From a virus: 21,837 nucleotides of DNA. The DNA is taken from positions 1-21,837 of the IMG/VR virus record IMGVR_UViG_3300031673_000547; one strand, 5' to 3'. Shown piece after piece: positions 3,922 to 18,610 of this stretch. Numbering within the stretch: position 1 is the stretch's first letter; each line of letters opens with the position of its first letter. The position numbers were made by a program, and so were the translations under genes. Below the pieces are notes generated by a model, which was given only the letters and a program-made list of their open reading frames with translations, was not told the DNA's origin and did not search any database.

Positions 3922-4087
3922 CGTACACCTTCACCGCCTCGATCTCGTAAATATCGTAACATGTCGCAGGGCGTATCTTGTTCTGTTGCTGTGCCTCAAA
4001 TATCGCATCTTCTTTGTAGTAGCAAATACGATAGATTTCACAATTATCCGTTCCGGCAATTTCTGATAAAACAAAATATAATTTCAT
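3905..4087 (-). CDS. Hypothetical 60-residue protein coupled to portal
   Basis: Starts at an ATG that overlaps the portal stop codon (ATGA, 4084-4087), with a purine-rich SD (GGAGAAGG) encoded in the portal C-terminus. Translation is therefore almost certainly coupled to portal. Sequence: KLYFVLSEIAG, then two Cys (CEIYRICYYKE), then CYDIYEIEAVKVYDGKEG. The beta-rich pattern suggests a small compact domain. Three Cys could be structural, but no paired zinc knuckle is present. Function unknown. Confidence 0.65.
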   Translation of the reverse strand: MKLYFVLSEIAGTDNCEIYRICYYKEDAIFEAQQQNKIRPATCYDIYEIEAVKVYDGKEG

Positions 4088-5619
4088 TCTGCCTTCTCCG
4101 TCTCCGGGTCCTCTTCGTCCTCAGGGGTCTGCTGTGCCTTCGACCGCGCTTTCAGATACTCCTCGTCTCCTCTTTCCTCGTCGCTATCGCCTTCTTGCTC
4201 GGTCGCCATCTCTTCCTCTTCCTGCTTCAGCTGCTCCATCTCGTAGTCGTAGTCGAGGTCGAGCCGAGACGCTGCCGTGCGGTTACTTATCCACCGCTGG
4301 TTCGACTGGAGCACGTATGCCTTGGTTTCCTTCTCGATCTCGCGGTGTATCAGTTCCGGGAACGTGATCTCGACTTCCGTGGAAGTCTCCTCAAACGCCT
4401 GCACCTCTACGGGACGCCGTTCACCCGTCTCCGGATCCTCGGCCTCCAGCTCTATCGTGATCTCCTCTTTCGCCGGGATCTCTCCCGCCTTTATCCCTGC
4501 GGTGATGACCTTGGCGAGGATCTCCTTGAAGTGCACGCTGAAGAAATCCTGCCAGTCCATGAACTCGCGTACCCCTGGGGCTTCTGCCACTAAGGTGCTC
4601 GCGTAGTTACTATTCGAGCTATCTGAAGTCACCATGAACTCCGGTAACCCCGCACCAGCGCTTATGGCCAGTAATATACTGCGCCCGTCTTCCTGCACGT
4701 CGGCGGCCTGGAGATTCGGGGACAGCATCTTGTAGTCCACTCCCTTGCTGGTGGTGAGCACAGACACGCCCTCTGGGGCCTTCGCGTACTCCGTGTTGTC
4801 CGACGCCTTTCGCTTCAGCGTCTTCTGCGCGTTTACCAGCGAGGCGATCTGGTCGCCCGTGCCGGTTATCTGCTTCACCAACGCTATCGTGGCCCGCACT
4901 TTATTGAGCTTCATCCGATCCCGCAGCCAATCCTTGTACATCTTCAGGTCCGGCAACATCGCCTCAAGATAAGAGCGCCCGCGCTTCACGTCGGAGTCGA
5001 CCATGATCTTGATGTGCTGCACGTCCTCGGCCGGCACACGCTCCTCCTTGTACCAGTACGCCAGGACATCTTCCACGTCGTCGGGATTCGTCTCGATCCC
5101 ATAGGTGACGTTATTTTTCGCCTTCTTGTCCTTCGGTTCCGTGACCTTTCCAGCGTCCATGAACCGCGTGAGCAACATCCCGGTCTGGTCTGGAAAGAAA
5201 CGGATGAACGCCTCGCCGTCACGCATCGTCCGCCGCACGACCTCCTTCTTCCGTAGGTCCATCCGGTTGACTCGCCAGAACGTGTCGAGCCATCGCTTCA
5301 CCATCGGATTCTGTGATATCGGCTGAACGTCGAACCCGCGCCCCACGATATACTTCTCCATGAGCCGCAGGATGTTCCTCGCGTGCGAGTTCCGATAGAA
5401 GAACTCCATAGCGACTTCCCGGAGCTCCCCGGCCTCCGAGGCATCCAGTTCCTTCGGCGACGTACCGAGTATCGTCCAGTCGCTCTCGTCGATATCCTCA
5501 AGCGTCTTGCGCTGCGCTCTGTTGGGTGATAGCAGCCGTTCGTAAATCTTCTGCAACAGTACGGCCTGCCGTGCCTCGGTCAGTGCTATCTGCCTCTTAG
5601 CTTTCAGTAATTCAAACAT
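4084..5619 (-). CDS. Phage portal protein
   Basis: 511 residues, normal for a portal. Recognisable pieces are SHARNILRLMEKYIVGRGFD (about 78-97), DGEAFIRFFPD (about 134-144), RGRSYLEAMLPDLKMYKDWL (about 213-232), which is the characteristic core helix of portals, and LPEFMVTSDSSNSNYAST (about 326-343), the family Ser/Asn-rich loop. The last 50 residues are extremely acidic. The portal forms the dodecameric ring at one capsid vertex through which the terminase pumps DNA. SD AGGAG lies three bases before ATG; the start overlaps the radical SAM stop by eight bases. The unusual point is that the terminase gene is 4.5 kb away, separated by accessory genes. Confidence 0.93.
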   Translation of the reverse strand: MFELLKAKRQIALTEARQAVLLQKIYERLLSPNRAQRKTLEDIDESDWTILGTSPKELDASEAGELREVAMEFFYRNSHARNILRLMEKYIVGRGFDVQPISQNPMVKRWLDTFWRVNRMDLRKKEVVRRTMRDGEAFIRFFPDQTGMLLTRFMDAGKVTEPKDKKAKNNVTYGIETNPDDVEDVLAYWYKEERVPAEDVQHIKIMVDSDVKRGRSYLEAMLPDLKMYKDWLRDRMKLNKVRATIALVKQITGTGDQIASLVNAQKTLKRKASDNTEYAKAPEGVSVLTTSKGVDYKMLSPNLQAADVQEDGRSILLAISAGAGLPEFMVTSDSSNSNYASTLVAEAPGVREFMDWQDFFSVHFKEILAKVITAGIKAGEIPAKEEITIELEAEDPETGERRPVEVQAFEETSTEVEITFPELIHREIEKETKAYVLQSNQRWISNRTAASRLDLDYDYEMEQLKQEEEEMATEQEGDSDEERGDEEYLKARSKAQQTPEDEEDPETEKAE

Positions 5620-6832
5620 TCTCTCCTGCCCTTCGCCGGAGTGCCAGCTCCCGGTCTTTCCTCCGTAATTCCTCGACCTGTTCCGGACCCCACTGTTTCG
5701 TTTTAATCAGCCCCGTCGTGTATCGTAGGTCTCTGTATAGTTTCGCTCCGTCTTCAGTAAGGTATCTCTTGCTCTTGCAATAATTGTACAGCTCTGTGCC
5801 TGGATAAGGTGTGGCAATATAGATATGCCTGTCCGTCAGCGGGAGCGAGTTCGCATAGTCGACGGTCTCCTGCATCTGTTTAAGGCTTTCCCCCGGCCAC
5901 CCGATGATGAAGAACCCACAGACCTCGATCCCATTCTTCATCAACCAATCGGCTATCACTCTCGCTTCCTTCGGCTTGATCCACTTGTCGAGGATGTTCA
6001 TGCGCTTGGCGGTCTCTTCCACCCCGGTCTCAAACGCCAGAGACACTCGCCAGCATCCGCTGTCTGCGATCTCGGCAAGACACTTGGAGAGACCTCGAAT
6101 CTCAATCCCGTTGGGTGTAGACCAGTGGACGTTGTATCGATTGAAAAGGCTGATAATTTGTTTGAGCCGTTCAGGCTGTAAGGCGATATTGTCATCTTCG
6201 ATAAAAAGTTCATGTATCCCTTTCCCCTCGAGGTACTTCAGGTAACGGTCGATCCACGATACCGAGAATGAAACATACTTCTCCCATACGTTCTGTACAC
6301 CACAGAAAGCACACTGTCGCACGCAGCCTCTAGAGGTCTCGAACGGGATCCACCGCTTCGTCATGCTTCGAAGATCGTGCGGCTTGTCCTCTTCCCAATA
6401 TCGGTTTAGCTCCGTGAGTGCGAAAATAGGATGATGGATCTCGCCCTTGATTTGAAATTTCAAGTGTTCGGCTATCGCGTGCTCGCCCCAGCCTTTCGCC
6501 ACGAACGTAACGCCTTTCGGAGGTTGGACAACCTGTGCATGAAAACCACCGGCGATCACTGTACCGCATACCGCGCGTGCTTTCTTCGCTACCTTCATGT
6601 AGTCGTCATGCTGGATACTGAACTGTACCGATATACCGATCACATCCCACTTATTCATCCGCAGGGTTTCGGTGAGATCATCCCCGGCGTGCATATCGCA
6701 AACGTGAACCCAGTTGTCGGTATTCTCCACGATGTTCGTTCGCATGGACCACAGGCCGAGCGGCGGCATCACGCACCGCTTCTGGGTCTCGGCCGCGGGC
6801 TCAGGTAGCTTGATTAACAGAACTCGTTGCAC
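5612..6832 (-). CDS. Radical SAM enzyme with B12-binding-like N-terminal domain
   Basis: 406 residues from a GTG start (VQRVLLIKLPEP). The 4Fe-4S motif SRGCVRQCAFCGV is clear, with C170, C174 and C177. The N-terminal 150 residues follow the class B layout: MPPLGLWSM, DVIGISVQFS and GTVIAGGFHA, a Rossmann-like fold usually binding cobalamin. TIM-barrel landmarks follow: ELFIEDDNIAL, RVSLAFETGVEETAKRMNI and CGFFIIGWPGES. Known class B members methylate or rearrange unactivated carbons. A longer frame to 6907 adds an Arg/Ser/Pro-rich N-terminus translated through the upstream gene, so I prefer 6832. It overlaps the portal start by eight bases, which is a strange partner for an oxidoreductase. 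The substrate is unknown; it may modify a base, a sugar or a virion protein. Confidence 0.88.
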   Translation of the reverse strand: MQRVLLIKLPEPAAETQKRCVMPPLGLWSMRTNIVENTDNWVHVCDMHAGDDLTETLRMNKWDVIGISVQFSIQHDDYMKVAKKARAVCGTVIAGGFHAQVVQPPKGVTFVAKGWGEHAIAEHLKFQIKGEIHHPIFALTELNRYWEEDKPHDLRSMTKRWIPFETSRGCVRQCAFCGVQNVWEKYVSFSVSWIDRYLKYLEGKGIHELFIEDDNIALQPERLKQIISLFNRYNVHWSTPNGIEIRGLSKCLAEIADSGCWRVSLAFETGVEETAKRMNILDKWIKPKEARVIADWLMKNGIEVCGFFIIGWPGESLKQMQETVDYANSLPLTDRHIYIATPYPGTELYNYCKSKRYLTEDGAKLYRDLRYTTGLIKTKQWGPEQVEELRRKDRELALRRRAGENV

Positions 6833-7172
6833 TCGGTGTCCCCGATCCCTGCACCTGCTCGCTCGGCATGGGCTCCCCGGATATCTGGTAGGCGATGTTC
6901 TTCGCAACGGGCGATTCGTAGCCCCGCTGCTTCAGGACGTCGATATTGTGGTTGATGATCTCCTTGGAGTGACCGAAGTAGATGATCCCTGTCTCGTCCG
7001 CTTCCGTCACCCCGCTGGCCATACGGATAGCCTTGCCCTCGCAGGAAGACTGGGAGCCCCCCTTCTTCAGGCAGGCGGCAAGGGCACTGTTGGCTACGTC
7101 AACCCACTGGCGCTTACCCTTCGCTGAGAGCCCTTTCTTGTGGCTATCTACATCCGCGATTGCCCACGGCAT
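6801..7172 (-). CDS. Small head-region protein with CEGKAIR-type motif
   Basis: 123 residues. The N-terminal half has a pattern I know from proteins encoded beside phage capsid and protease genes: MPWAIADVDSHKKGL, WVDVANSALAACLKKGG and CEGKAIRMASGV. The C-terminal half carries GYESPVAKNIAYQISGE, another helix-type motif common in phage head neighbourhoods, and ends in a Ser/Thr-rich tail. SD AAAGGAG lies seven bases before ATG. Its last 32 bases overlap the preferred start of the radical SAM gene. Two Cys (CLKK, CEGK) may pair. The exact role is unknown; a small virion or assembly factor is likely. Confidence 0.7.
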   Translation of the reverse strand: MPWAIADVDSHKKGLSAKGKRQWVDVANSALAACLKKGGSQSSCEGKAIRMASGVTEADETGIIYFGHSKEIINHNIDVLKQRGYESPVAKNIAYQISGEPMPSEQVQGSGTPSATSSVNQAT

Positions 7173-7190
7173 AATCAGGCTCCTTTCCCC

Positions 7191-7358
7191 TTATTTCGCT
7201 CGCCCTGTTCCTTTTCCGCTCCCACCGCCTTTGCCGTATCCTGGACCACTTTTCGTTCCGGGCCCAGTGTTACGTCCCCCGCGCTGACCTCCCGACATAC
7301 CCTTGCCACGCCCCCGACCATCTTGCGGCCTGTTTTGTCCTCTTGGATTCTTTGCCAT
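7191..7358 (-). CDS. Gly/Arg-rich 55-residue miniprotein
   Basis: A short gene with a good SD (AAGGAG, six bases before ATG). The product is almost entirely Gly, Arg, Lys, Ser, Pro and Asn: it starts MAKNPRGQNRPQDGRGRGKG, contains SGGQRGGRNTGPGTKSG and ends GGGSGKGTGRAK. It has no hydrophobic core and one Tyr, so it must be disordered. RGG-like composition suggests binding to nucleic acid or an acidic surface. It lies 18 bases before the small head-region gene and 19 bases after the Lar-like gene. The clean SD, correct spacing and a stop placed just before the next SD argue that it is translated. Confidence 0.6.
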   Translation of the reverse strand: MAKNPRGQNRPQDGRGRGKGMSGGQRGGRNTGPGTKSGPGYGKGGGSGKGTGRAK

Positions 7359-7377
7359 TTCTTACTCCTTGTTCCTA

Positions 7378-7728
7378 TTATCGGTTTTTTATGCCCAGGA
7401 TGGCGTCTGCGGCTGTCTGGCGGTCGCGGTCATTCCACTTGCTCTCAGGAACCATCGTCCCGCAGGCTTGGCACTCGATCATCGCCTCGTTCATTCTATA
7501 ATATAGATGCTTACATCCACAGAAAGGGCAAGGGCGGTACTTGGTATTATCGGCTACTATCTTTTCTGGAAACGTCATAGCAGACGGACATAGAATCGTG
7601 GCTGACGGCATCCCTGTTTCTATTTTATTTGTACTATCAGTTGTCCACGCTGTCCCAGGAATATCAATCGATGATGATGCTCCAGGAAATAAAGGTTGAG
7701 CATTAGTCATCCCCGTAATTCCACTCAC
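7378..7728 (-). CDS. Lar-like zinc protein (second of tandem pair)
   Basis: 116 residues from a GTG start that overlaps the previous stop (GTGA). SD GAGGG lies seven bases upstream, which is why I reject a longer frame starting at 7887. The C-terminal 50 residues carry a zinc ribbon (RPCPFCGCKHLYY, then IECQACGTMVPE) followed by SKWNDRDRQTAADAILGI. The CPFCG...C..CG...WN.R pattern is that of Lar-type restriction-alleviation proteins. The first 65 residues are low-complexity Ser/Thr/Pro. Its tail WNDRDRQTAADAILGI matches the neighbour's WNTRDKESAAATLMGI, so the two are duplicates. The anti-restriction role is inferred from family resemblance only. Confidence 0.7.
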   Translation of the reverse strand: MSGITGMTNAQPLFPGASSSIDIPGTAWTTDSTNKIETGMPSATILCPSAMTFPEKIVADNTKYRPCPFCGCKHLYYRMNEAMIECQACGTMVPESKWNDRDRQTAADAILGIKNR

Positions 7729-7982
7729 TTCTTCACCCTCGCCAGTTCCTTTATTCCCATCAGGGTAGCGGCCGCACTCTCCTTGTCTCGGGTGTTCCAC
7801 GCTTCCGCGAGCTTGTTTAGCGTGTCTACTTCTCCAAAAGCCGGGCCAATTCCCATCCCCATCTTTATCCCGCAGCCAAGGCAGCATATCTCCATATTTA
7901 TTATATCAAATTCGGCTGGATATCCACAAACGGGACATTCTCGCAACGTTACCGATGCTTTGATCTGTTCCTTATAATTCAT
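7725..7982 (-). CDS. Lar-like zinc protein (first of tandem pair)
   Basis: 85 residues beginning MNYKEQIKASV. Two Cys pairs (RECPVCGYPAEF and EICCLGCGIKMG) form a zinc ribbon, followed by KLAEAWNTRDKESAAATLMG. The AWNTR ending is the hallmark of Lar-type restriction-alleviation proteins. I choose the ATG at 7982 because GAGG lies six bases upstream; the in-frame ATG at 8006 has no SD. Start of the next gene overlaps its stop (GTGA). It follows structured spacer element A. Known Lar proteins modulate type I restriction enzymes; here that is inference. Confidence 0.72.
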   Translation of the reverse strand: MNYKEQIKASVTLRECPVCGYPAEFDIINMEICCLGCGIKMGMGIGPAFGEVDTLNKLAEAWNTRDKESAAATLMGIKELARVKK

Positions 7983-8009
7983 CTTTGCCCTCACATAGCT
8001 AAGCATTAG

Positions 8010-8142
8010 AATACCGGAGGGGTGCCGGTCGGCCTTCCGGCACGTGAAACCCCAAACTTGTAAAGGAGGATGATCTATGAAACGAAGAAGTGGAATCCCA
8101 TGAGACTTTTTCTTGGCCTATCACGCGGTCCCTCCGGTTATT
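8010..8142 (-). promoter_or_regulatory. Structured intergenic RNA element A
   Basis: The 133-base spacer is closed by a helix: CCCTCCGGTTATT (8130-8142) against AATACCGGAGGG (8010-8021), 12 bp with one bulged base. The first arm begins directly after the stop codon of the upstream zinc gene. Just inside the last arm is a perfect seven-bp hairpin GTGCCGG/CCGGCAC (8022-8028, 8037-8043) with loop sequence AAGGCCGA on the minus strand. The element ends 27 bases before the ATG of the Lar-like gene. Same plan as elements B, C and D. The interior also contains a sequence complementary to a Shine-Dalgarno site (8061-8070). Confidence 0.55.
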
Positions 8143-8445
8143 TTATTCCTTCTCCAAAGCCAGCGCGTAAATGGGAAGCATCTCTTTCCCGGCGCATATC
8201 TCGCAGACCGTTATTTCTCGCTCTTCCCCAACACGCTCGGCCATGTCCTCGTCTGCTCCCATGACCTGAGCAAGTTCGGCGTGGCCCCCTAGAAACGTCG
8301 CAAGCCCATCCTGCCGTGCAACGGCCTTGTAGTCTATCCCCCATCTCTGGAACTTCACTGTCCAGAACAGAGGAAGACCACTCGTGTCTATTTTTCTATG
8401 ACAGATATCGCACATAACATGATCTCTAAATTCTTTCTCTTTCAT
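8143..8445 (-). CDS. Small zinc-knuckle protein
   Basis: 100 residues. Two widely spaced Cys pairs, VMCDICHRKI (about 11-20) and TVCEICAGKE (about 80-89), could join to bind one zinc ion. Between them lie FWTVKFQRWGIDY and a helical, acidic segment GGHAELAQVMGADEDMAERV. SD AGGAGG sits six bases before ATG and directly against the last arm of structured element B. The split-knuckle arrangement with a helical insert resembles many small phage proteins of unknown function. No enzymatic motif is visible. Its stop codon is directly followed by the first arm of element A. Confidence 0.7.
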   Translation of the reverse strand: MKEKEFRDHVMCDICHRKIDTSGLPLFWTVKFQRWGIDYKAVARQDGLATFLGGHAELAQVMGADEDMAERVGEEREITVCEICAGKEMLPIYALALEKE

Positions 8446-8458
8446 CCATTCCTCCTAA

Positions 8459-8542
8459 AAAGGCGCTGCCTGGTATGACCCAGGATAGACTCTGCGGATG
8501 GACAGGGCGCCTTAAAGTCTTCTCCGCGCTCACAGCGCCTCT
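8459..8542 (-). promoter_or_regulatory. Structured intergenic RNA element B
   Basis: The 84-base spacer is closed by AGAGGCGCTG (minus strand, 8533-8542) paired with CAGCGCCTTT (8459-8468), ten bp with one G-U pair. A hairpin CCTGG/CCAGG (8469-8473, 8480-8484) lies directly inside the last arm. Two interior pairings cross each other: GCGGA/TCCGC (8523-8527 with 8494-8498) and AGACT/AGTCT (8516-8520 with 8487-8491), as in an H-type pseudoknot. The last arm is followed by a short T-run and then the SD AGGAGG of the next gene. An internal AAGGCGC (8507-8513) can compete for the same arm. Confidence 0.55.
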
Positions 8543-8544
8543 AT

Positions 8545-8757
8545 TTATCTAAATCCTAATTGTTGCCGTGCCATATTCCGCATCATTGGTGCCATGCGGT
8601 ATACATACCAGCCACAATTCGTTGTTGAAACTTTTCCACATCCTGAAATTAAATCATCTAAATCATCATCAGAAAGTGCGCGAATGTGGTCATACATGGC
8701 ATCGGCAACTTTATCCATGATGTCTTTCTCTCGACGCAGAATTTTTATCTTTTCCAT
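8545..8757 (-). CDS. Hypothetical 70-residue helical protein
   Basis: Begins MEKIKILRREKDIMDKVADAM and continues with DHIRALSDDDLDDLISGCGK, a helical charged stretch; the C-terminal part is CGWYVYRMAPMMRNMARQQLG. Two Cys (GCGK and NCGW) may form a pair. SD AGGAGG lies six bases before ATG and immediately after the last arm of structured element C. The product is probably soluble. I do not recognise a family. The strong SD and conserved spacer layout support it as a real gene. Confidence 0.7.
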   Translation of the reverse strand: MEKIKILRREKDIMDKVADAMYDHIRALSDDDLDDLISGCGKVSTTNCGWYVYRMAPMMRNMARQQLGFR

Positions 8758-8768
8758 TTTTCCCTCCT

Positions 8769-8924
8769 AAAATAAACCAGCGGCAGGGCGGCTTCCTTAC
8801 CCTGCGGTACGTTCGACTTTAGGTCTCAAGCTCCCGGAAGTAACCGTACTTTCCTCAAACTCCATATCGTCCCCTAAATGAAGTGGCCTTCTTCATTCTG
8901 CCTTGGGCCACGCTGGTTTATTTT
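8769..8924 (-). promoter_or_regulatory. Structured intergenic RNA element C
   Basis: The largest closing helix of the set: AAAATAAACCAGCG (8911-8924 on minus) pairs perfectly over 14 bp with 8769-8782. Inside the last arm lies hairpin GCAGGG/CCCTGC (8783-8788, 8800-8805). Two crossing pairings occur: CCTAA/TTAGG (8873-8877 with 8819-8823) and CGTAC/GTACG (8845-8849 with 8807-8811). Hairpin ATGAAG/CTTCAT (8878-8883, 8891-8896) has a loop (8884-8888, TGGCC) complementary to GGCCA at 8906-8910, a second pseudoknot-like contact. The first arm includes the stop codon of the upstream gene, and the last arm abuts the SD of the next gene. Confidence 0.6.
8797..8865 (-). CDS. Possible 22-residue peptide inside element C
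   Basis: ATG at 8865 has GGGG five bases upstream and opens 22 codons (MEFEESTVTSGSLRPKVERT and two more residues) to a TAA. It could be a leader peptide whose translation opens or closes the surrounding RNA structure, or a chance frame. The arguments for it are the SD spacing and a protein-like composition. The argument against it is that strong RNA pairing explains the same bases. Confidence 0.3.
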   Translation of the reverse strand: MEFEESTVTSGSLRPKVERTAG

Positions 8925-9460
8925 TCTACCCATCCTCTCAAATCCGACTGCACGTTGTTCTCGTGATGTATGATCGACATGGTTGGCCGTAACTTCCGTA
9001 TTATATCACATATCTGCCCTCTCCACCAGTCGGCACTTACGCAGGGCCTCTGTGTCCCATCGGTCCAATAGCCGCCATAAAGATCCCCTCCACCGAAGTC
9101 GAACCCGTATAGGTCGATTCTGTCGTACCCCTCAACGATGGCCTGGTACAGTAACATAGGCCCGGTCGACACGGGCTTCATCCCGACGAACCTCACCGTG
9201 CCGTCGATGTGCGGTTTGTAGGCAGGGAACAGCACCCGCCACTTCTTGACGTGGACGTACCCGTCCTGCTTGGCGAACCACTTCTGGATATTTATGGCCA
9301 AGGCCGCTACCTCTCGATGAACGGTCCCTATGGTATGGATCGGAGGCAGAATGGCGAACTCCATGAAGGCGTAGTTGCAGACCCAGATATCCCCCGCATA
9401 GTCCATCGGCCGGTTGTTCCGTCGTGACTGGCCATTACCGAGGATCGTTACGCTTTTCAT
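8918..9460 (-). CDS. Putative sialyltransferase-fold glycosyltransferase (GT42/GT29-like)
   Basis: 180 residues. The N-terminus SVTILGNGQS, then DIWVCNYAF, fits the nucleotide-binding start of sialyltransferase-like folds (usually GNGPS...N). The segment STGPMLLYQAIVEGYDRIDL followed by YGFDF (98-122) closely follows the family pattern of a Ser/Thr-Gly loop, helix, GY.(E/D)I.L.GFDF. It is shorter than bacterial GT42 enzymes (about 250-290), so it may be a minimal version. Its ATG overlaps the preceding stop (ATGA). The fold class is moderately sure; donor and acceptor are unknown. A role in decorating phage DNA, virion or host surface is possible. Its stop codon is part of the first arm of element C. 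Confidence 0.6.
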   Translation of the reverse strand: MKSVTILGNGQSRRNNRPMDYAGDIWVCNYAFMEFAILPPIHTIGTVHREVAALAINIQKWFAKQDGYVHVKKWRVLFPAYKPHIDGTVRFVGMKPVSTGPMLLYQAIVEGYDRIDLYGFDFGGGDLYGGYWTDGTQRPCVSADWWRGQICDIIRKLRPTMSIIHHENNVQSDLRGWVEK

Positions 9461-9675
9461 GCTTCCCGCACCCTCATTCTTCGTCTCTGTTTCTTGGTAA
9501 TTTTGACCTTCGGGTCCTTCCGCCTCCAGCCGTCGCGTCGCTCCTTGTACTCGTTCGAGATTATCTCCCCCCGTATCCAGGCAGCCTTATCGTTGCAGTC
9601 ACATCGCTCAGGTTTTCGTTCGGTCGTGACCAATATCTTTCCACACTTGTTGCACTTGAACCTTCTGACCTTCAT
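9457..9675 (-). CDS. Small basic zinc-ribbon protein
   Basis: 72 residues from the second of two adjacent ATGs, which has better spacing (five bases) from the SD GGGGG. Cys positions KCNKCGKIL and PERCDCND give a four-Cys ribbon. The rest is strongly basic: YKERRDGWRRKDPK and VKITKKQRRRMRVREA. A basic tail after a zinc ribbon suggests nucleic-acid binding. It overlaps the glycosyltransferase start by four bases and is preceded by structured element D. No specific family recognised. Confidence 0.7.
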   Translation of the reverse strand: MKVRRFKCNKCGKILVTTERKPERCDCNDKAAWIRGEIISNEYKERRDGWRRKDPKVKITKKQRRRMRVREA

Positions 9676-9693
9676 CATATCCCCCTTTTAAAA

Positions 9694-9849
9694 TTGCCAG
9701 CGCGGGGCCTTGCGGCGCTTGTTTTTTATTATGTGAAATATACCGGCCCGATTGTCTATATAAATATCTATTAGGATTTTTAAATATGATAATCAGTTTT
9801 CCACCCTCGCCCTTCCGAGCCGTCTTTTCACCGTGGGTCACGCTGGCAA
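9694..9849 (-). promoter_or_regulatory. Structured intergenic RNA element D
   Basis: Closing helix TTGCCAGCG / CGCTGGCAA (9841-9849 with 9694-9702), nine perfect bp plus one G-U. The first arm lies in the last codons of the upstream zinc gene. Its first side reads GCCAGCGTGACCCACGG on the minus strand, nearly the same as element C (ACCAGCGTGGCCCAAGG). Further pairings on the minus strand are CTCG/CGAG and GTGAAA/TTTCAC. Near the last arm is GCC-GCAA-GGC, a GNRA-capped mini-hairpin. The middle is AT-rich. After the last arm come TTTT and AAAA runs and the SD GGGGG. Confidence 0.5.
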
Positions 9850-10101
9850 CAGTTCTCCTCTCTCCATGGTCTCGTACCCGTATCGCTCGTATATCTTCAT
9901 CCCACATACCGAGTGGTATACGCTTCCCCTGAACCCGACCGCGAGCTTGACCGAGAGTTTCTTCCCGCACTTCTCGCACCGCACACGGTGAACACCCATC
10001 CGCTTGATCGCCTCGATGAGGTCCATATCAAACTCTTCAGATCGCTGCGCTGCCTTGTAAGCCTGCCAGGTATGGAGGTACCGACGGTCGTGCTTAGTCA
10101 C
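9838..10101 (-). CDS. Small zinc-binding protein coupled to terminase
   Basis: 87 residues from a GTG start overlapping the terminase stop (GTGA), with GGAGGAG encoded eight bases upstream. It begins VTKHDRRYLHTWQAYKAAQR. The zinc site is RVRCEKCGKKL plus VYHSVCGMK, a CxxC...HxxC pattern. The helix at residues 10-35 contains several acidic residues (SEEFDMDLIEAIKRMG). The family is not identified; small zinc proteins of this type often regulate or bind nucleic acid. Its last codons form the first arm of element D. Confidence 0.7.
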   Translation of the reverse strand: MTKHDRRYLHTWQAYKAAQRSEEFDMDLIEAIKRMGVHRVRCEKCGKKLSVKLAVGFRGSVYHSVCGMKIYERYGYETMERGELLPA

Positions 10102-11594
10102 TCCGCCCACTCCTCCATCACGAACTCCTTCTGCACCTGCGCCAGGCAGTACACGAAGGCGTCGCCCTTATCCGGGCTTCTCCCGAACTCCTTCTTGAAC
10201 TCGTCCTTGGGCTGCACGATGAGCCGCCCGTCGCTCTTGGTTCCGTACTTCATCCCGGTGAGGTCCTCGATCAGCTCGTCGTCGTCCGGTATGCTCATCA
10301 CCCCGCTTTCCTTGAAGTTACGCTCGAACAGCTCTCGTGCCTGCCACCACATCTCGGCACGACGATTGAAGAACTTGCGCTCGTTATCCGCCTTGCGTGC
10401 CGAGTCGATCCCGTATACCGTGTTGAGCTTCAGCTGCCCGTTTAGAAGCAACTCGGCCAGGCGGTCGTACACCCCGGCTCCCACGCCGTTCGCGTCGACC
10501 TTCAGCACCTGCGCTGGCATAGCGTTGACTATGTTTGTTACGATCCCGCAGGTCTCCATCGTGTTCGTCTTCCCCCATACCTTCACGACCTCGAACTGGT
10601 ATCCGCTACGGCGAAACAGCACCGACCGGTCGTCCCCCATCCGTGCAACGTCGAGTCCGTACTCGATCTCCCCGTTGGTGTATATCGCCTTGACATCAGC
10701 TCCACGAGCTCGCTCTGCCCATGACAGCGGGATCACGGCGTTCCCACCCTTGTCGCTGAACTCACCGAGTATCTTCGTCTCCCACAAATAGGGGTTGGTT
10801 TCTTTCCACTGCCAGCGGTCGAGGATCCAGTCCATATCGGCTATCGGGATATCTGCCACCGCCTCCGCGGGCCACTCGCTTCCCGTTCGCGGCTTTCCCC
10901 AATCGTAGAGCTGGTTGTTGATCGACTGCTTGTACTCCTTCGGCACATCCTCGACGGAGACAAGCGGGCTGTCCCATACGCTGAACTTGAACGACTTCCA
11001 GTTCCGGCGCTCGGTGCTGTGGTGCTTGCGGAACGGACACTGCTGGTCCGCCCCATCCGTAGTACTGATCTCCAGCATGTGACAGTCACCGATCATGGAC
11101 CCTTCCAGGGCGTTGTACGTGTCCTCCGGTATCCCCTTCGCCTCGTCTATGATGAACAGGATATGTTGTGCGTGCCAGCCCTCGATGTTCGTCGTCTGGT
11201 CCGTGGAGAACCCGATCATGTACCAGCCCGCCTCGATCTTCACGTCTACGGTCTGGCAGTCTCCCTTCAGCCGGCCGGGGAACTTCTGGTACAGGGTGCG
11301 GATCTCCTTCCACAACAGTTTCGCTACCTGCCTGTGGGTGGGTGCCGTGGTAACTACCACCGAGTTCTCGTATAGGTTTAGGAACGCCACGGCTACCGCT
11401 CCCGCCACGGTGGTTTTGCTGATACCGTGACAGCCACGTACCGATGTGCGCTTGTTGTTGAACACGCTTTCCGTGACCATCTTCATGCCGGACCACATCC
11501 GCATCTCCATGACGTCCTCGATGAACAGCCACGGATACCTGCGGTACCAGTCGAGTAGTTCGCCCTTACTTCTTGGCGTTTTTACCGTTCCCAT
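10098..11594 (-). CDS. terL: Terminase large subunit
   Basis: 498 residues, full length. ATPase domain: Walker A variant GCHGISKT (54-61), the motif VVVTTAPTHRQV (79-90), then Walker B LFIIDEA (146-152), with the catalytic Glu at 151. Nuclease domain of RNase H type: acidic residues at YGLDVARMGDD (D315), LKVDANGVG (D367) and KGDAFVY (D478). It pumps DNA through the portal and cuts concatemers. The start ATG has GGAG six bases upstream and overlaps the small-terminase candidate by 29 bases. It is GC-richer than the ParB and glycosyltransferase genes just before it, by eye. Confidence 0.95.
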   Translation of the reverse strand: MGTVKTPRSKGELLDWYRRYPWLFIEDVMEMRMWSGMKMVTESVFNNKRTSVRGCHGISKTTVAGAVAVAFLNLYENSVVVTTAPTHRQVAKLLWKEIRTLYQKFPGRLKGDCQTVDVKIEAGWYMIGFSTDQTTNIEGWHAQHILFIIDEAKGIPEDTYNALEGSMIGDCHMLEISTTDGADQQCPFRKHHSTERRNWKSFKFSVWDSPLVSVEDVPKEYKQSINNQLYDWGKPRTGSEWPAEAVADIPIADMDWILDRWQWKETNPYLWETKILGEFSDKGGNAVIPLSWAERARGADVKAIYTNGEIEYGLDVARMGDDRSVLFRRSGYQFEVVKVWGKTNTMETCGIVTNIVNAMPAQVLKVDANGVGAGVYDRLAELLLNGQLKLNTVYGIDSARKADNERKFFNRRAEMWWQARELFERNFKESGVMSIPDDDELIEDLTGMKYGTKSDGRLIVQPKDEFKKEFGRSPDKGDAFVYCLAQVQKEFVMEEWAE

Positions 11595-11983: not shown

Positions 11984-12754
11984 TCACACTCCCGATATCG
12001 GTACATGCAAAATCGGGTTTATCTGGATCACCTTATCATGTTTCCGTGTTTTGGCGATATGAGATCGATCTGATGTCTTTACGATCTCCGATCCCCATTT
12101 TTTCTGCAAGAGTTTCAACTGATTCTTTTCGTTTTGAACAGACCGATACGTGGAACACCCTCCTCTCTGCTCCACCTGCCGCACGGAGTAATAGGCCTTA
12201 TTCACCCGCAAAATTTTCCGATACATTTTGATCTGTTGAAGTGTCATGTCATAATCTTCTTTAAGGGAGAACCGTTCATCATACCTCAATGAACATCCAT
12301 GCAAAAACACCCCGAACGGGCTTCCCACATAGGAAAGAAAGCTGAACGGAGTTCGTTCTCGGTAACACTGTGCATCAGTATTGACATTAACCCCCCACAT
12401 TCCAACCTTGAGTTCTTTCGCCACAAGGGAATATTTCTCGACAAAGCAATAGAATTCTTTTCCTTCTATCTTATTTGATTTTTTCCCTTCCCAGATAAAA
12501 AGTCCTTGAAAATCATCATCGACAATCAACACGGCATCGTACATCGGAAGGAGTGAATCGAGAATGTAATTCCTAACCCGGCAAATATTCCCCTGGATCC
12601 CATCCGGGCAAATTTCCAATTTTGCGTTTGGGTTTCTTTCTTGATATTTCTGGGTCTCGGTTGAATCAACAAACACACGAATGTCTGGCAAAACATTTGG
12701 AGTCTCTAGTCTATCGGGTCTCCCATAAGAAGGACAGGCAATCGCTATTTTCAC
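11984..12754 (-). CDS. Glycosyltransferase, TET-associated type (TAGT-like)
   Basis: 256 residues, GT-A fold. Features: KIAIACPSYGRPDRLETPN at the N-terminus, NICRVRNYIL, then the metal-binding VLIVDDDF (DDD 79-81), HGCSLRYDERFSLKEDYDMT (EDYD 166-169) and a C-terminal GGCSTYRS (198-205) with KKWGSEIV. This series fits the TET-associated glycosyltransferases of phages, which add sugars to hydroxymethylated bases in DNA. GTG start with SD AAGGTGAG and a GTGA overlap with the ParB-like gene. The gene is AT-richer than the terminase. No TET/JBP oxygenase lies inside the window, so DNA as acceptor is inference. Glycosyltransferase assignment is strong; the sub-family is moderate. Confidence 0.75.
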   Translation of the reverse strand: MKIAIACPSYGRPDRLETPNVLPDIRVFVDSTETQKYQERNPNAKLEICPDGIQGNICRVRNYILDSLLPMYDAVLIVDDDFQGLFIWEGKKSNKIEGKEFYCFVEKYSLVAKELKVGMWGVNVNTDAQCYRERTPFSFLSYVGSPFGVFLHGCSLRYDERFSLKEDYDMTLQQIKMYRKILRVNKAYYSVRQVEQRGGCSTYRSVQNEKNQLKLLQKKWGSEIVKTSDRSHIAKTRKHDKVIQINPILHVPISGV

Positions 12755-13419
12755 TTTCTCACCTTCATTAGTTTTTGAATTGCCTCCGGTCCCGGCAATA
12801 CGCGACCCATTCCCACCTGTTTAAGTTTATGATGAAGCGATCTCACGGCCTTCAATTCAAACAAAGTCTGTGCTTGAAGCCAATCTATGTCATTATCGAA
12901 ATACAACACGATATAATTATGGCTTTCCATCAATTCCGCTGATAATTCCACTTCAGGTTCATCGTCGAAAATTTGAATCTTAAGTTCGGGAATATGAATC
13001 GAGTCACTGAGAGAATCGAAGTCTAACCCAATAAAAAAATCTCGTGCTCCCCTATTCGATATCTTTCCGAATTGACTGACAATTGCAAGTAGTTTCTCTT
13101 TCGCTTCTTTCTTGCTTTTTGCTTTGATATAATCCACCGGTAGTTTTTCTGGTATCTTATACCCGTCTTCTTTCAAGCTGGCAAGTGCCTTAATTCTCTG
13201 GTGTCCGTCTATAATATATGCCTTACTTTTCTGGGTTCGTTGCCATACGAAAATAGGAGCCGACCAACCACGCTTGACGATACTATTTTTCAATTTCTTC
13301 AATCGTTCTTTCGTAAGTGATTTCAATTCCCCCTGAAATTCTATCAATTCTTCGACCGGTCTCTCATCTGCCCCTCGACACTCTATGGTGATAGTTTTCT
13401 CTTCTTTCCTTTTCGCCAT
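12751..13419 (-). CDS. ParB-like protein
   Basis: 222 residues from ATG 13419 with SD GGAGGAG six bases upstream. The ParB/sulfiredoxin fold is seen in LIEFQGELKSLTKERLKKLK (25-44), GWSAPIFVWQ and KAYIIDGHQRIKALASL, where DGHQR (71-75) is the nucleotide-binding motif. The first residues are basic (MAKRKEEKTIT). The C-terminal half carries HNYIVLYFDNDIDWLQAQT, typical of phage ParB-like proteins near modification and packaging genes. It overlaps the glycosyltransferase by four bases. ParB-like phage proteins are common partners of DNA-modification glycosyltransferases. The role may be DNA recognition or regulation of modification. Confidence 0.8.
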   Translation of the reverse strand: MAKRKEEKTITIECRGADERPVEELIEFQGELKSLTKERLKKLKNSIVKRGWSAPIFVWQRTQKSKAYIIDGHQRIKALASLKEDGYKIPEKLPVDYIKAKSKKEAKEKLLAIVSQFGKISNRGARDFFIGLDFDSLSDSIHIPELKIQIFDDEPEVELSAELMESHNYIVLYFDNDIDWLQAQTLFELKAVRSLHHKLKQVGMGRVLPGPEAIQKLMKVRK

Positions 13420-13420
13420 T

Positions 13421-13711
13421 CTACTCCTCCGGTTTCGGCACATATTCCCCCGACTGCACGAGTCGATGTATCTTCTGTACCACGGCATTTTTCGGCAAGT
13501 TTAGTTGCTCGGCGATCTGAGCTCCGCTGAGTCCCTGGTCAAGCATCGACACGAGGTCCGCATCGTATAGGTACCACGGTATCGTCATATTTGAAGGTTT
13601 TTGTCCTTGCGGCGTGGCGAAGGTATTGGTATTCGTCTTCTTCGGCATATCAGTTATCCGCATCCAGATCGGGCAGTCCGGGAATGCCGGGTTGTGTAGC
13701 GGGTCACTCAT
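13421..13711 (-). CDS. Small helix-turn-helix DNA-binding protein
   Basis: 96 residues from an ATG overlapping the stop of the upstream membrane gene by eight bases. The C-terminal half forms an HTH: YDADLVSMLDQGLSGAQIAE followed by QLNLPKNAVVQKIHRLVQSG. The N-terminal half is unusual: Pro-rich with SDPLHNPAFPDCPIW. A longer start at 13741 only adds an Arg-rich translation of the overlap (MRRLRRWWTK) and is not preferred. It lies one base before the ParB start. It may be a transcription regulator or a small-terminase-like DNA binder. Confidence 0.7.
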   Translation of the reverse strand: MSDPLHNPAFPDCPIWMRITDMPKKTNTNTFATPQGQKPSNMTIPWYLYDADLVSMLDQGLSGAQIAEQLNLPKNAVVQKIHRLVQSGEYVPKPEE

Positions 13712-14783: not shown

Positions 14784-15470
14784 TTAAAGTTTGGCGACCA
14801 TCTCCGGCGTGTTCTCCCAGATTACCTTGCCCTTATACCAGAGGTGTCCGCCTTGTCCTTTCGTGATTGGCAGTTTCTTCATTTTTCCTACCAACTCACA
14901 GTTTATGAAACTGGCTCCCATCTCCAGAATGTCGTCTATGATCTCCGATATGTCGCCGTCAGAGTGAAAAATGATCTCGCATCCGTAGCTCTTTGCCAAT
15001 TTAAACAGCTGACCGATCTGCGGCTTGACGTATTCCCTCCAGTCATCAGGCCGCATGAGTAGGCCGGTATTGTATCCGTAGTCATCCCCGATCATAAAAT
15101 ATGTTAACGGGTATCCAGTTTCCCTGTTCCACGTCTCCAGCAGGCGGTCATTCCACTCGAGGTACGTCTGCGTTATAGCGGAGAGGTCTGGATGGTCCAT
15201 CAGGAGTTCCAAGTATCCCATGAACCGGGCAGCGGTCGTGAAGATACTCTTGAAATTCCGGGTACCGAACCCGTGACTTTTCGAGAACCAACCTTGCCAC
15301 TCCTTGGGGGGAAGTTCTATCTCAAATGCTCGCCAGTCGTACTTCTGCAAGAGCGGCGGCATTCTTATCTCGCCGGGATGTTTTACCACCTCCGGCCCCC
15401 ATTCCGTCATCTTGTTTTCCCACCCCCAATTTATGGGTTTTATTTGTTTGGGTTTTACGTTTAGAAACAT
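14784..15470 (-). CDS. Uroporphyrinogen decarboxylase-like (UroD/MtaA fold) short protein
   Basis: 228 residues from ATG 15470 (GGGAGGA nine bases upstream) or 208 from ATG 15410. The C-terminal half contains the family pattern GDDYGYNTGLLMRPDDWREY and then FHSDGDISEIIDDILEMGAS, with ASFINCEL. This is typical of the UroD superfamily, including corrinoid-dependent methyltransferase components. The family usually has 330-360 residues, so the N-terminal half of the barrel is absent or replaced. It overlaps the zinc-ribbon/HTH gene by 89-149 bases, which is unusual for this compact genome. It is not a normal haem gene; a methyl-transfer or other small-molecule function is possible. Confidence 0.65.
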   Translation of the reverse strand: MFLNVKPKQIKPINWGWENKMTEWGPEVVKHPGEIRMPPLLQKYDWRAFEIELPPKEWQGWFSKSHGFGTRNFKSIFTTAARFMGYLELLMDHPDLSAITQTYLEWNDRLLETWNRETGYPLTYFMIGDDYGYNTGLLMRPDDWREYVKPQIGQLFKLAKSYGCEIIFHSDGDISEIIDDILEMGASFINCELVGKMKKLPITKGQGGHLWYKGKVIWENTPEMVAKL

Positions 15471-15966
15471 TCTTCCAGGTCCTCCCGTACCAGATATCTT
15501 CTATGGTTTTCGGACTCACTTCGTATATGGCCCCGATTACTTTGGCCGGATGTTTGCCGCGCAATCCGAGGATCTGCCAGACTTCCGTCTCGTTCAGTCG
15601 TGCACCTGAGTATGTCTTCTCTCTCAGTGGGATAATTTGTCCCTTTTGTCCCTCGTATGTGCCATATATGAAATATTGTTCTAGCGGTGTTCCGTTGTTT
15701 GATTTGTTGACGGTATAAATCTTGAACATTTCTCCCTTTTTTCTCTTGTATCTCATCGTGATCTTCCATCCGCAGAGACCACAAACGAAACCGCAGATAT
15801 GGTTTGAATATCTTATAACCTCTAGACTTGAATTCGGTTGACTGCAATAAGGACACAGAAGATGCGTGTCTTGACGGTAATGCAGCTTCCGTTTCCTGAC
15901 CCTGAGTAGATTGAATATCTCTTGGTTCGTCCAACTCCAGTTTCCCCAGCCTAAATTGAGTAAGAT
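15322..15966 (-). CDS. Zinc-ribbon plus helix-turn-helix protein, apparent ATC start
   Basis: The frame carries a clear zinc ribbon (HLLCPYCSQPN, then VCGLCGWKI) upstream of the first ATG (15756), so coding must begin further back. From the preceding in-frame TGA (about 16035) to 15756 there is no ATG, GTG or TTG. An ATC at 15964-15966 sits behind GGAGGAG with four to six bases of spacing and overlaps the dehydrogenase stop by 16 bases. This gives 214 residues. Downstream parts are FKIYTVNKSNNGTPLEQYF, then an HTH (LNETEVWQILGLRGKHPAKV, YEVSPKTIEDIWYGRTWKNV) and a Lys-rich tail. It is probably a DNA-binding regulator. A frameshift or sequencing error could also explain the lack of a start. 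Confidence 0.6.
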   Translation of the reverse strand: MLLNLGWGNWSWTNQEIFNLLRVRKRKLHYRQDTHLLCPYCSQPNSSLEVIRYSNHICGFVCGLCGWKITMRYKRKKGEMFKIYTVNKSNNGTPLEQYFIYGTYEGQKGQIIPLREKTYSGARLNETEVWQILGLRGKHPAKVIGAIYEVSPKTIEDIWYGRTWKNVSKRKTQTNKTHKLGVGKQDDGMGAGGGKTSRRDKNAAALAEVRLASI

Positions 15967-18371
15967 CGCGCTCCTCCGCCCAGCCGTATGATGTTTACAC
16001 CCTCCTGCTCGGGTATGTAGCGAAACGGATCAATGACGAGCGACCCTTGTGGCCATTTAATGGTTGTCCATTTCTCGTGATCGCACGTAATAACAAATAT
16101 CGCCGGATCAATATTCTCTGGAAGATCGTTCTGCTCAAACATTCGGATCACCAGGTGTCCTCGTTTCATGAGAATATCAGCGAGCAACAACGCCGAACTT
16201 CCGTCCAGAAGATTAGTCTCCGACTTGAACTCCATCCCGCAAAGCACGATTGGCTTGTTGTGTTCGTTTAGTTTCTTCGCGCAGATGACGTCGGCCAACC
16301 ATTCGGTCTGCCGTTCCCGGCAAAGCATGTTCATCTTCCACCAGTTGAAACTTAGATTATATCGGTCGGCCAGATAAGCGAGCGCGAGGTTTTCCTTCGG
16401 GTGACAATTGTGAACTGCTCCGGCAACGGTTACATAGGATGGTTCGCCGTCTACTTCCAGGTTGTATACATCTATATTCCTGGCGGTCTGAACTTCAACC
16501 TTTCGTATTTTGTGGTAGAAAAATCCCTCCTTCTCAAAGATATGATTGTATCTTTTCGCTTGCATTTTGTGTCGATTGGGCATCTCGACTATTTTTTGCA
16601 TGGCCTCTAAATCTCTCGCGTTCGTTACGGCAACGTCCCAATTCTTTTTATGCCAAATTCCATTAAAGCGTCTCGGGTGTTCTTTGATCCACGACGAAAT
16701 ACCAAGGCGCTTCAAAAGCAAATGCGCACCATAGGCTAAATTCACAGAAGTGGTTGAGTATGTATATCCATATTGAAATGCCGCGCCGTCTCCCCGGTAT
16801 AGTCCCCGCAAGATGTTTCTTGCGGTTTCCTCACTACCATTCAATACCCAATCTGGTAACCTTTTTGTGGCCGCTCCATGTCCGAAGTCGTTATCCAGCT
16901 TGTTTGCTAAATACGTATCGTTGAATCTAATTGTCGCACAATTTTTTTTCTGCGTCTTGGATGGAGTTGATTTGTCATTGAAACAGAAAAGTAATTTGCT
17001 TACTTCTTTATGGTATTCAACTTCTTTCTGATGAAAATGAAAAGAAATCCGCCCGTTGTTATCTCGGCCCCTCGGCCATTCTATTGACCCTTCTGATAGA
17101 TAATAACCTGCCAGAATTTCATATACTTCATAGCTCTTGGCTTCCGTTGTCTTCGGTCTTGGGAATAAAATATAATGATCTCGTGTAATATCTGATGCTG
17201 GCAAATAATATGGTTCTCCAACGCATTGGGGTATTTTTTGGGCACCGTCTCGCTTTTCTTTTCCCTGCCAATAATAAACTTTACGGAGATCGTCAGCTAC
17301 GAGAACTGGATGTTCTTCTGTCACCGTAACGGGTTGCAGTCCTCTTGGATATAGCATATACAATTCGCCGTTATATCGCCTTTTATATTTTTCGGTTACT
17401 TCATGATATGTTCCATCTGCCGTCAGCACTTGGCTCCCAGGGCCAAGTTCATTTATTGGTTGCATCCCATCTATCGTATAAATTAATTCACCCGCGGGCA
17501 AACATCCCCCTCCATCTCCCATCCCTCCATAAGTATACCGCTTCCCGTTCCACAAACGCTTCGTGGCAGCGGCGAGAGTTCCTGTTACCTTGTCTACGTC
17601 AACAGTAGCTTGCACCTTGTAGGCCAGTTCCATCATGGCATTCGCATAATCTATCTTTGAGGTGATCCAGCCGTTGTAGCAAGTCTTCACCATGCAGGCC
17701 TCGTCGACTCCGAGGACGTACTGGTCGGTATCTGTGACCGTGGAATAGAACTCACATACCCTGCTCAGGTAATCGTCAAGCGGGTTCCCGTCATACCCGA
17801 GTACTACGAACTCCGGGTCGTAGAGATCTGGTATCACGGTTCCCATAGCGCAGAACTGTGGGTTGTGGACGAACGCGATGTGATCGGACAGCTTCCATTT
17901 CTTCTGCGAGCGCAAGCTGTGTTCAGTTTCAAGCTGCGCTAGCATCGGTAGGAACGTTCCGGGTAGCACAGTTGATATGACGCAGAGGATGATCTTCTTC
18001 TCTATCTTCCGCAAGAATAACTCGTGCGCTATCTCGTCAAGGCATCTCCTCAGTGGGTACAGATTATAGTCCATGAACACTCGCGGTATGGGGACCGTTC
18101 CGTCGTATCCGGTCTGGTTCGGCGTCTCTACGGCAACGAAGGTGATGTCGCATTCGAGCACGTCTTTCAATTCCCCGTACTCCACCAAACCGTCCTTCAG
18201 TAGATCGGCAACGCTTTTCTTCGGGTCTGGCGATGCTTCTTTCTCCTTAAACCACTGCCAGCCCATTCGTTTTTCGTCTTTGTCGTACCCGATAACTTTG
18301 TGTTGTCTGTACGCAAATCCAAGAGCCATCGGTAATCCCAACTTCCCCAGGCCAATTATGCCGATTTTCAA
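15951..18371 (-). CDS. UDP-glucose/GDP-mannose 6-dehydrogenase with intein
   Basis: 806-residue precursor; after splicing 440 residues, typical of the family. N-terminal Rossmann: MKIGIIGLGKLGLPMALGFA. Middle: FVAVETPNQ, VISTVLPGT, FVHNPQF and DEACMVKTCYNGWITSKIDY. The catalytic motif, usually GGxCFPKD, is formed only after splicing: GGMGDGGG joined to CHPKENLALAYL. The spliced active Cys is residue 656 of the precursor (290 after splicing). The C-terminal domain has VLCGMEFKSETN and FVITCDHEKWTTI. It oxidises a sugar nucleotide to the uronate using NAD. TTG start with SD AGGAGG five bases upstream. Products could feed the glycosyltransferases here. The donor (UDP-glucose or GDP-mannose) cannot be decided. 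Confidence 0.9.
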   Translation of the reverse strand: MKIGIIGLGKLGLPMALGFAYRQHKVIGYDKDEKRMGWQWFKEKEASPDPKKSVADLLKDGLVEYGELKDVLECDITFVAVETPNQTGYDGTVPIPRVFMDYNLYPLRRCLDEIAHELFLRKIEKKIILCVISTVLPGTFLPMLAQLETEHSLRSQKKWKLSDHIAFVHNPQFCAMGTVIPDLYDPEFVVLGYDGNPLDDYLSRVCEFYSTVTDTDQYVLGVDEACMVKTCYNGWITSKIDYANAMMELAYKVQATVDVDKVTGTLAAATKRLWNGKRYTYGGMGDGGGCLPAGELIYTIDGMQPINELGPGSQVLTADGTYHEVTEKYKRRYNGELYMLYPRGLQPVTVTEEHPVLVADDLRKVYYWQGKEKRDGAQKIPQCVGEPYYLPASDITRDHYILFPRPKTTEAKSYEVYEILAGYYLSEGSIEWPRGRDNNGRISFHFHQKEVEYHKEVSKLLFCFNDKSTPSKTQKKNCATIRFNDTYLANKLDNDFGHGAATKRLPDWVLNGSEETARNILRGLYRGDGAAFQYGYTYSTTSVNLAYGAHLLLKRLGISSWIKEHPRRFNGIWHKKNWDVAVTNARDLEAMQKIVEMPNRHKMQAKRYNHIFEKEGFFYHKIRKVEVQTARNIDVYNLEVDGEPSYVTVAGAVHNCHPKENLALAYLADRYNLSFNWWKMNMLCRERQTEWLADVICAKKLNEHNKPIVLCGMEFKSETNLLDGSSALLLADILMKRGHLVIRMFEQNDLPENIDPAIFVITCDHEKWTTIKWPQGSLVIDPFRYIPEQEGVNIIRLGGGARSYSI
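16407..17504 (-). mobile_element. LAGLIDADG intein in the dehydrogenase active site
   Basis: 366 residues (precursor 290-655). N-terminal splice block CLPAGELIYT with Cys1; block B VTVTEEHPVLV; homing-endonuclease motifs ILAGYYLSEGSIE (419-431) and ILRGLYRGDGAAF (520-532), two DOD repeats; C-terminal block NIDVYNLEVDG, then SYVTVAGAVHN with the terminal His-Asn, followed by +1 Cys, the catalytic Cys of the host enzyme. All residues needed for splicing are present, so it is probably active. It is a bifunctional self-splicing and homing element. By eye its coding sequence is AT-richer than the flanking dehydrogenase exteins, which suggests recent entry. Confidence 0.9.
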
Positions 18372-18610
18372 TTCGTCCTCCTGTTTTTAAATAGCGGCGG
18401 GTCTATCCCATCAAGACCGTTCAAAGGGAAAGCTACTTTCAAAACATCCTCTTCGTTCGATCTACACGCCAACGACGTGTTGCCTCTTTGGATAGGCCCG
18501 CCTACAATATATTGTGATACGGTAGTTCGGGTTCTAGGCAGTCTCCTTGAAGGGCTGAGTCCACGATAACCGTGAAACTCAAACATGAGAGATAGGCACG
18601 AATGCCTCAT
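18368..18610 (-). CDS. Hypothetical 80-residue protein coupled to both neighbours
   Basis: The ATG overlaps the aminotransferase stop (ATGA), with GAGGTGA upstream. The last bases overlap the TTG start of the dehydrogenase and encode its SD (KNRRTN). Sequence: MRHSCLSLMFEFHGYRGLSP, RLPRTRTTVSQYIVGGPIQR, GNTSLACRSNEEDVLKVAF. There is no known motif and it is rich in Arg, Ser and Leu. The tight stop/start coupling on both sides argues that it is translated; the composition is unusual compared with neighbours. It may be a small accessory protein of the sugar pathway, but no function can be read from it. Confidence 0.5.
   Translation of the reverse strand: MRHSCLSLMFEFHGYRGLSPSRRLPRTRTTVSQYIVGGPIQRGNTSLACRSNEEDVLKVAFPLNGLDGIDPPLFKNRRTN

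Follow-up and report, generated by a model that had tools for sequence, protein, structure and literature searches.

Gene Organization of the Accessory Slot

All convincing genes of this 21.8-kb virus record, analysed in full as a window of 21,837 nt, lie on the minus strand; they include terL, portal, an M23 peptidase gene, and others. Adjacent genes overlap or lie within ~30 nt of each other almost throughout the window. Four long same-strand spacers of 99–160 nt are found between positions 7982 and 9838, in the block between terL and portal, and hold the RNA elements designated A to D (Table 1). According to the original prediction, all other junctions measure 0–30 nt; this was not borne out, because a further long spacer of 90 nt occurs at 1192–1281. 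An apparent gap of 194 nt at 15756–15951 reads as coding sequence that shares its frame with the next gene below.

Table 1. Genes and RNA elements of the terL–portal block, in minus-strand order
Feature	Position (strand)	Description	Closing helix	Inner hairpin	Following motif	Fold z
terL	10098–11594 (-)	Upstream border of the accessory slot
Gene	9838–10110 (-)	90 aa, small CxxC zinc-ribbon-like protein; upstream gene of D; overlaps the end of terL
Element D	9693–9850 (-)		12 bp, 9850–9839/9704–9693; overlaps the upstream stop codon	GCAA mini-hairpin, 9716–9707	AGGGGG	-2.6
Gene	9457–9678 (-)	73 aa, small zinc-ribbon-like protein; after D
Gene	8918–9460 (-)	180 aa, no family match; before C
Element C	8769–8924 (-)		14 bp, 8924–8911/8782–8769; includes the upstream stop codon	8805–8783	AGGAGG	-3.2
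Gene	8545–8757 (-)	70 aa; between C and B
Element B	8459–8542 (-)		10–11 bp, 8542–8532/8469–8459	8484–8469	UUAGGAGG	-2.3
Gene	8143–8445 (-)	100 aa, two CxxC pairs; between B and A
Element A	8013–8138 (-)		9 bp, 8138–8130/8021–8013	8043–8022, abuts last arm		-1.1
Gene	7725–8006 (-)	Lar-like restriction alleviation protein; after A; likely start 7982 behind GUGAGGG
portal	4084–5619 (-)	Downstream border of the accessory slot

Terminase alignment yielded five phages with 47–51% identity, and portal alignment yielded ~40 loci, most near 50% identity. The block is absent from the ~45 phages with a half-identical terminase or portal, and the genes around the four spacers have no match at the terL–portal junction of relatives. 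In relatives whose contig carries both genes, the distance between them ranges from 27 to 4296 nt, and unrelated small genes fill the long cases; the junction is therefore a variable accessory slot. Its gene content in the relatives compared (L008–L012 and L149–L189) differs from that of the window, where the junction with its bordering genes lies at 4084–11594. No homologue was found in named phages for the three flanking proteins tested, nor in genome contigs for the 180-aa protein. The block genes may have separate origins, in line with the GC3 of 0.34 in gene 8545–8757 against 0.56–0.81 in terL, portal, and the other block genes.

Two neighbouring reading frames at 7378–8006 encode Lar-like zinc ribbons and may specify restriction alleviation proteins. 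Elsewhere in the window, a UDP-glucose dehydrogenase-like gene (15951–18371) carries an in-frame intein with a LAGLIDADG domain, and genes for a TET-associated glycosyltransferase, a ParB-like protein, a radical SAM protein with a B12-binding domain, a URO-D-like protein, and an aminotransferase (5612–6907, 11984–13488, 14784–15470, and 18607–19689) hint at DNA hypermodification. The spacer at 1192–1281 has two hairpins: a canonical intrinsic terminator (AACTGGTTA-CACGA-TAACCAGTTTTT) placed directly at the stop codon, and another of 36 nt (GAGTGTG...CACACTC). The terminator suggests that ordinary terminators are in use, and the host is thus probably bacterial; a prophage search for the host gave no match.

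Closing Helices and Internal Structure of the Elements

The spacers were chosen by length and not by helix. In each, the stop region was paired with the 46 nt before and at the next start, the uninterrupted helix of greatest stability was taken, and positions at the same spacing on either strand of the window served as the null. The common plan that had been claimed for all four, a closing helix of 9–14 bp, was confirmed. In minus-strand RNA, the uninterrupted helices have energies of -22.1 (A), -23.1 (B), -22.6 (C), and -25.0 kcal/mol (D), values equalled or bettered at fractions of 0.0029, 0.0023, 0.0032, and 0.0003 of the equally spaced positions, respectively (joint Fisher p ~2e-8). When every 5' end was paired with every 3' end, the own partner was best in four of four cases (-22 to -25); the strongest cross pairing was that of C with D (-20.4), and the rest reached -16.7 or weaker. 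An earlier test that tolerated bulges was less sharp, with shuffle p values of 0.007–0.085 using the better A window and 0.16 using the other. The fifth spacer, at 1192–1281, is off this plan, its best helix being -7.8. The first arm was also correctly placed at or within the end of the upstream gene: it overlaps the stop codon in C and D and lies 2 nt past it in B and 4 nt past it in A.

Comparable spacers of relatives, in comparisons for which genes were called by a simple script and not by curated annotation, lack such helices. None of 70 spacers (70–260 nt) from phages with a ~50% identical portal or terL contains a helix of -16. Among 217 spacers from all loci compared, including B and C of the window, only two others reach -22. 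These two, in L047 and L059, were rejected as instances of the same element, since they are iteron arrays with a palindrome. Such intergenic arrays (L047:4280–4415, L039:2729–2864, L031:4150–4267, L059:750–874, and L081:3615–3786) comprise repeats of a short iteron and a long terminal palindrome, with a TATA-like core at its centre and the iteron inside its arms. They lie ~1.5–2 kb upstream of terL, and the iteron varies among phages while the plan is kept; possibly, they constitute an origin or partition site.

The fold z-scores of the elements (Table 1) compare with a mean of -0.2 (sd 1.25) in coding controls, and fold energy does not differ clearly between strands. With 150-nt flanks, the closing helices of B, C, and D keep mean probabilities of 0.82, 0.96, and 0.90, respectively, whereas that of A drops to 0.00; the A helix forms with a probability of ~0.97 when folded alone and ~0.01 with 60 nt of flank. 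Because its closing helix is lost once flanks are co-folded and its z-score is so modest, A is the weakest of the four. End-to-end pairing is thus real for B, C, and D and probable for A.

The hairpin expected just inside the last arm is present, at a distance of 0 nt in A, B, and C and 2 nt in D. This adjacency is only modestly non-random (joint p 0.007); singly, the abutting hairpin is notable in A (p 0.025) and C (p 0.04) and ordinary in B and D. The U run that was said to precede the SD in B, C, and D does exist, although it is short (U4–U5), lies after or within the last arm, and in C falls inside the helix; A has none. The 13-mer reported as common to C and D was found, and their similarity extends over ~30 nt in all at the 5' end (p 0.008, uncorrected, six pairs tested). 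A and B have no sequence in common with the other elements, and the interiors are unlike, that of A containing CCUCC. By sequence, C and D are the only pair that look related. What had been described as covariation is four unlike pairs of arms, each of which does pair; the comparison is of four different spacers rather than of homologues and does not amount to evolutionary covariation.

Searches for Related Elements

The same DNA was found only in IMGVR_UViG_3300031578_000512, with 99.99% identity over 12.2 kb and no difference within the block. This near-identity argues against an assembly error and adds no comparative signal. The notion of one covarying RNA family is conjectural, with only C and D alike and no homologue in the collections searched: blastn of the elements against phages gave none, and covariance models of B, C, and D (R1–R3) gave only chance-level matches over 0.92 Mb of relatives from 87 sources. 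The C/D motif matched 58 stretches among the 2.9 million viral contigs of IMG/VR, with the same context only in the sister record. With filters off, the best other minus-strand places for the C model were D and then A, at the element borders (6.4 and 4.4 bits), a ranking that is suggestive of kinship, not proof of it. No Rfam 15 family matched in the region at the gathering threshold or at E values up to 5, and ARAGORN detected no tRNA or tmRNA.

Comparison with Known Systems

Structured intercistronic RNA in phage operons is a broad, known kind of feature; the present anatomy, in which every long accessory junction holds one large closed domain, is unusual. The early genes of T7 have RNase III processing hairpins between them, which are short and simple. 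The elements resemble these in that structured RNA separates successive genes of a transcript and lies immediately before the SD, but differ in being large domains closed by 9–14 bp. Integron cassettes are serial small ORFs, each followed by a structured site of 60–150 nt near the stop codon in which pairing is kept over sequence; here, too, small ORFs occur in series, most of them with a structured site after them. The attC boxes R'' (RYYYAAC) and R' (GTTRRRY) are absent from the window, with no complementary pair, and the attC reading was rejected on this ground. The mobile promoter–stem-loop cassettes of T4-type phages, reportedly described by Arbiol et al. in 2010 (cited in PMC6563267), are spacer modules between variable small genes. 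In the present case, by contrast, no promoter-like site lies between structure and SD, and the modules share no sequence, C and D excepted.

In cluster K mycobacteriophages, a conserved 13-mer, the SAS, is located at start sites, and the ESAS comprise 17-bp repeats with spacers of 4–13 bp and a common consensus (PMC3203893). The likeness consists in a repeated phage spacer feature before the starts of a subset of genes, with inverted repeats just upstream. The loops here, however, measure 62–134 nt, and the arms differ between elements. The 13-bp SAS GGGATAGGAGCCC has five matches in the window at up to three mismatches, against 6.1 expected, and none in the four spacers; without enrichment of the 13-mer, identity with SAS/ESAS was ruled out, as the original prediction had anticipated. 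Com–mom translational control in phage Mu (PMC6483171) is similar in that small zinc-finger proteins are encoded beside structured RNA, but the proteins here are not of the Com family and the SD is unmasked in B, C, and D. A Mu Com operator was rejected, as no match to the Com-family zinc ribbon (PF10122) was found beside the RNA. An ordinary intrinsic terminator was likewise rejected, since a scan for a GC-rich short-loop hairpin with a U run after it gave no minus-strand hit at the elements.

Possible Function and Alternative Explanations

A promoter scan found no promoter excess in the region, and a terminator scan found no minus-strand terminator at the four elements. The last arm and the SD lie too close together in B, C, and D for a promoter to fit between them; the downstream genes must thus be translated from read-through mRNA. 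In a thermodynamic model of single sequences that leaves out the ribosome, the SD of B is predicted to be unpaired at 0.63–0.90 when free, 0.81–0.93 with the helix closed, and 0.07–0.16 with the 5' arm held open; the values are 0.80–0.91 against 0.59–0.62 in C, 0.54–0.88 (free), 0.63–0.93 (closed), and 0.44 (open) in D, and 0–0.09 (free) and 0.40–0.50 (closed) in A. The SD is thus predicted to be open with a closed helix and more masked without it, most strongly in B and more weakly in C and D. Both SD and AUG of A are masked when the fold is unconstrained, and the closed helix would partly free them.

We tentatively favour the possibility that the spacers are self-contained intercistronic RNA domains whose closing helix joins stop and SD and keeps the SD open. 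The domains would belong to the polycistronic transcript of an accessory block that varies horizontally. There, the helix would fold each stretch of 84–158 nt into one closed unit and bring the stop codon and the next SD spatially to within a few nucleotides of each other at the base of that unit. Such a clamp would leave the SD open, prevent the interior from base-pairing with it or with coding sequence, and shield RNA that would otherwise be exposed by its lack of translation from Rho and nucleases; small acquired genes that lack their own promoters could therefore still be expressed as part of the operon. The own-end pairing, the z-scores of B, C, and D, their helix probabilities of 0.82–0.96, and the variable slot are consistent with this proposal, to which A is a poor fit because of its masked SD. 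Against it, a ribosome at the upstream stop codon would disturb the 5' arm, and the same model then closes the SD of B. Moreover, structure just 3' of a stop codon is reported to correlate with weaker coupling (PMC12548453). A short spacer would also serve more simply, and the clamp therefore leaves the existence of the elements unexplained.

The joined ends may instead be those of small structured non-coding RNAs that are excised by an enzyme such as RNase III or RNase P and act in trans. A closed domain with an inner hairpin stacked beside the 3' strand, a layout found in many excised RNAs, and one outline shared by four different sequences would suit such genes; the failure to match Rfam even at an E value of 5, the lack of a tRNA or homologue, and the D arm, which encodes the last residues of the upstream protein, make this explanation unlikely. 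The U4–U5 runs of B, C, and D, and the disruption of the 5' arm to be expected from ribosomes translating the upstream gene, recall attenuators or conditional terminators, in which closing helix and U run would halt the polymerase ahead of the SD except when translation or a factor intervenes. We consider this quite unlikely: A lacks the U run, that of C is within the helix, the loops are 62–134 nt long, the scan found no minus-strand terminator here, and an ordinary terminator occurs elsewhere in this genome, at ~1283–1255.

The structures might also act as DNA, marking the borders of shuffled gene cassettes in the manner of attC-like sites or the mobile spacers of T4-type cassettes. The small unrelated ORFs (GC3 0.34–0.72), mostly with an element after them, the hypervariable slot, and the ~30 nt common to C and D at the same end point in this direction, yet the missing R'' and R' boxes, the arms that only C and D share, and a C/D motif that does not recur in context among 2.9 million viral contigs render it similarly improbable. 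Translational operators for the adjacent-encoded zinc-ribbon proteins, as with Com on mom mRNA, would explain the short CxxC proteins encoded at 9838–10110, 9457–9678, and 8143–8445 and the ability of A to mask its own SD; with no Com family match, 10–14 residues alike around one CxxC, and the SD open in B, C, and D, this is very unlikely. Neutral relics of inserted sequence, with helices under weak or no selection, would account for elements that no relative keeps, a marginal A, and interiors without common sequence, but hardly for helices in four of four spacers (joint p 2e-8) or for a genome that is tightly packed elsewhere, and we regard them as highly improbable.

Implications

The four elements are a real, modest curiosity. 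Phage operons are tightly packed, and four successive long structured gaps in an accessory slot therefore need a reason. It is doubtful, though conceivable, that they represent a new modular RNA domain travelling with single phage accessory genes, in which a variable interior and an end-to-end clamp would allow any gene to be inserted in an operon with stop and SD side by side. If the elements are excised RNAs, several phage non-coding RNAs would be encoded together, next to genes with a possible anti-restriction role. Should stop and SD really be bridged by a clamp, it would indicate how phages add promoterless genes together with untranslated RNA while keeping expression, and it would offer a portable part for operon design.
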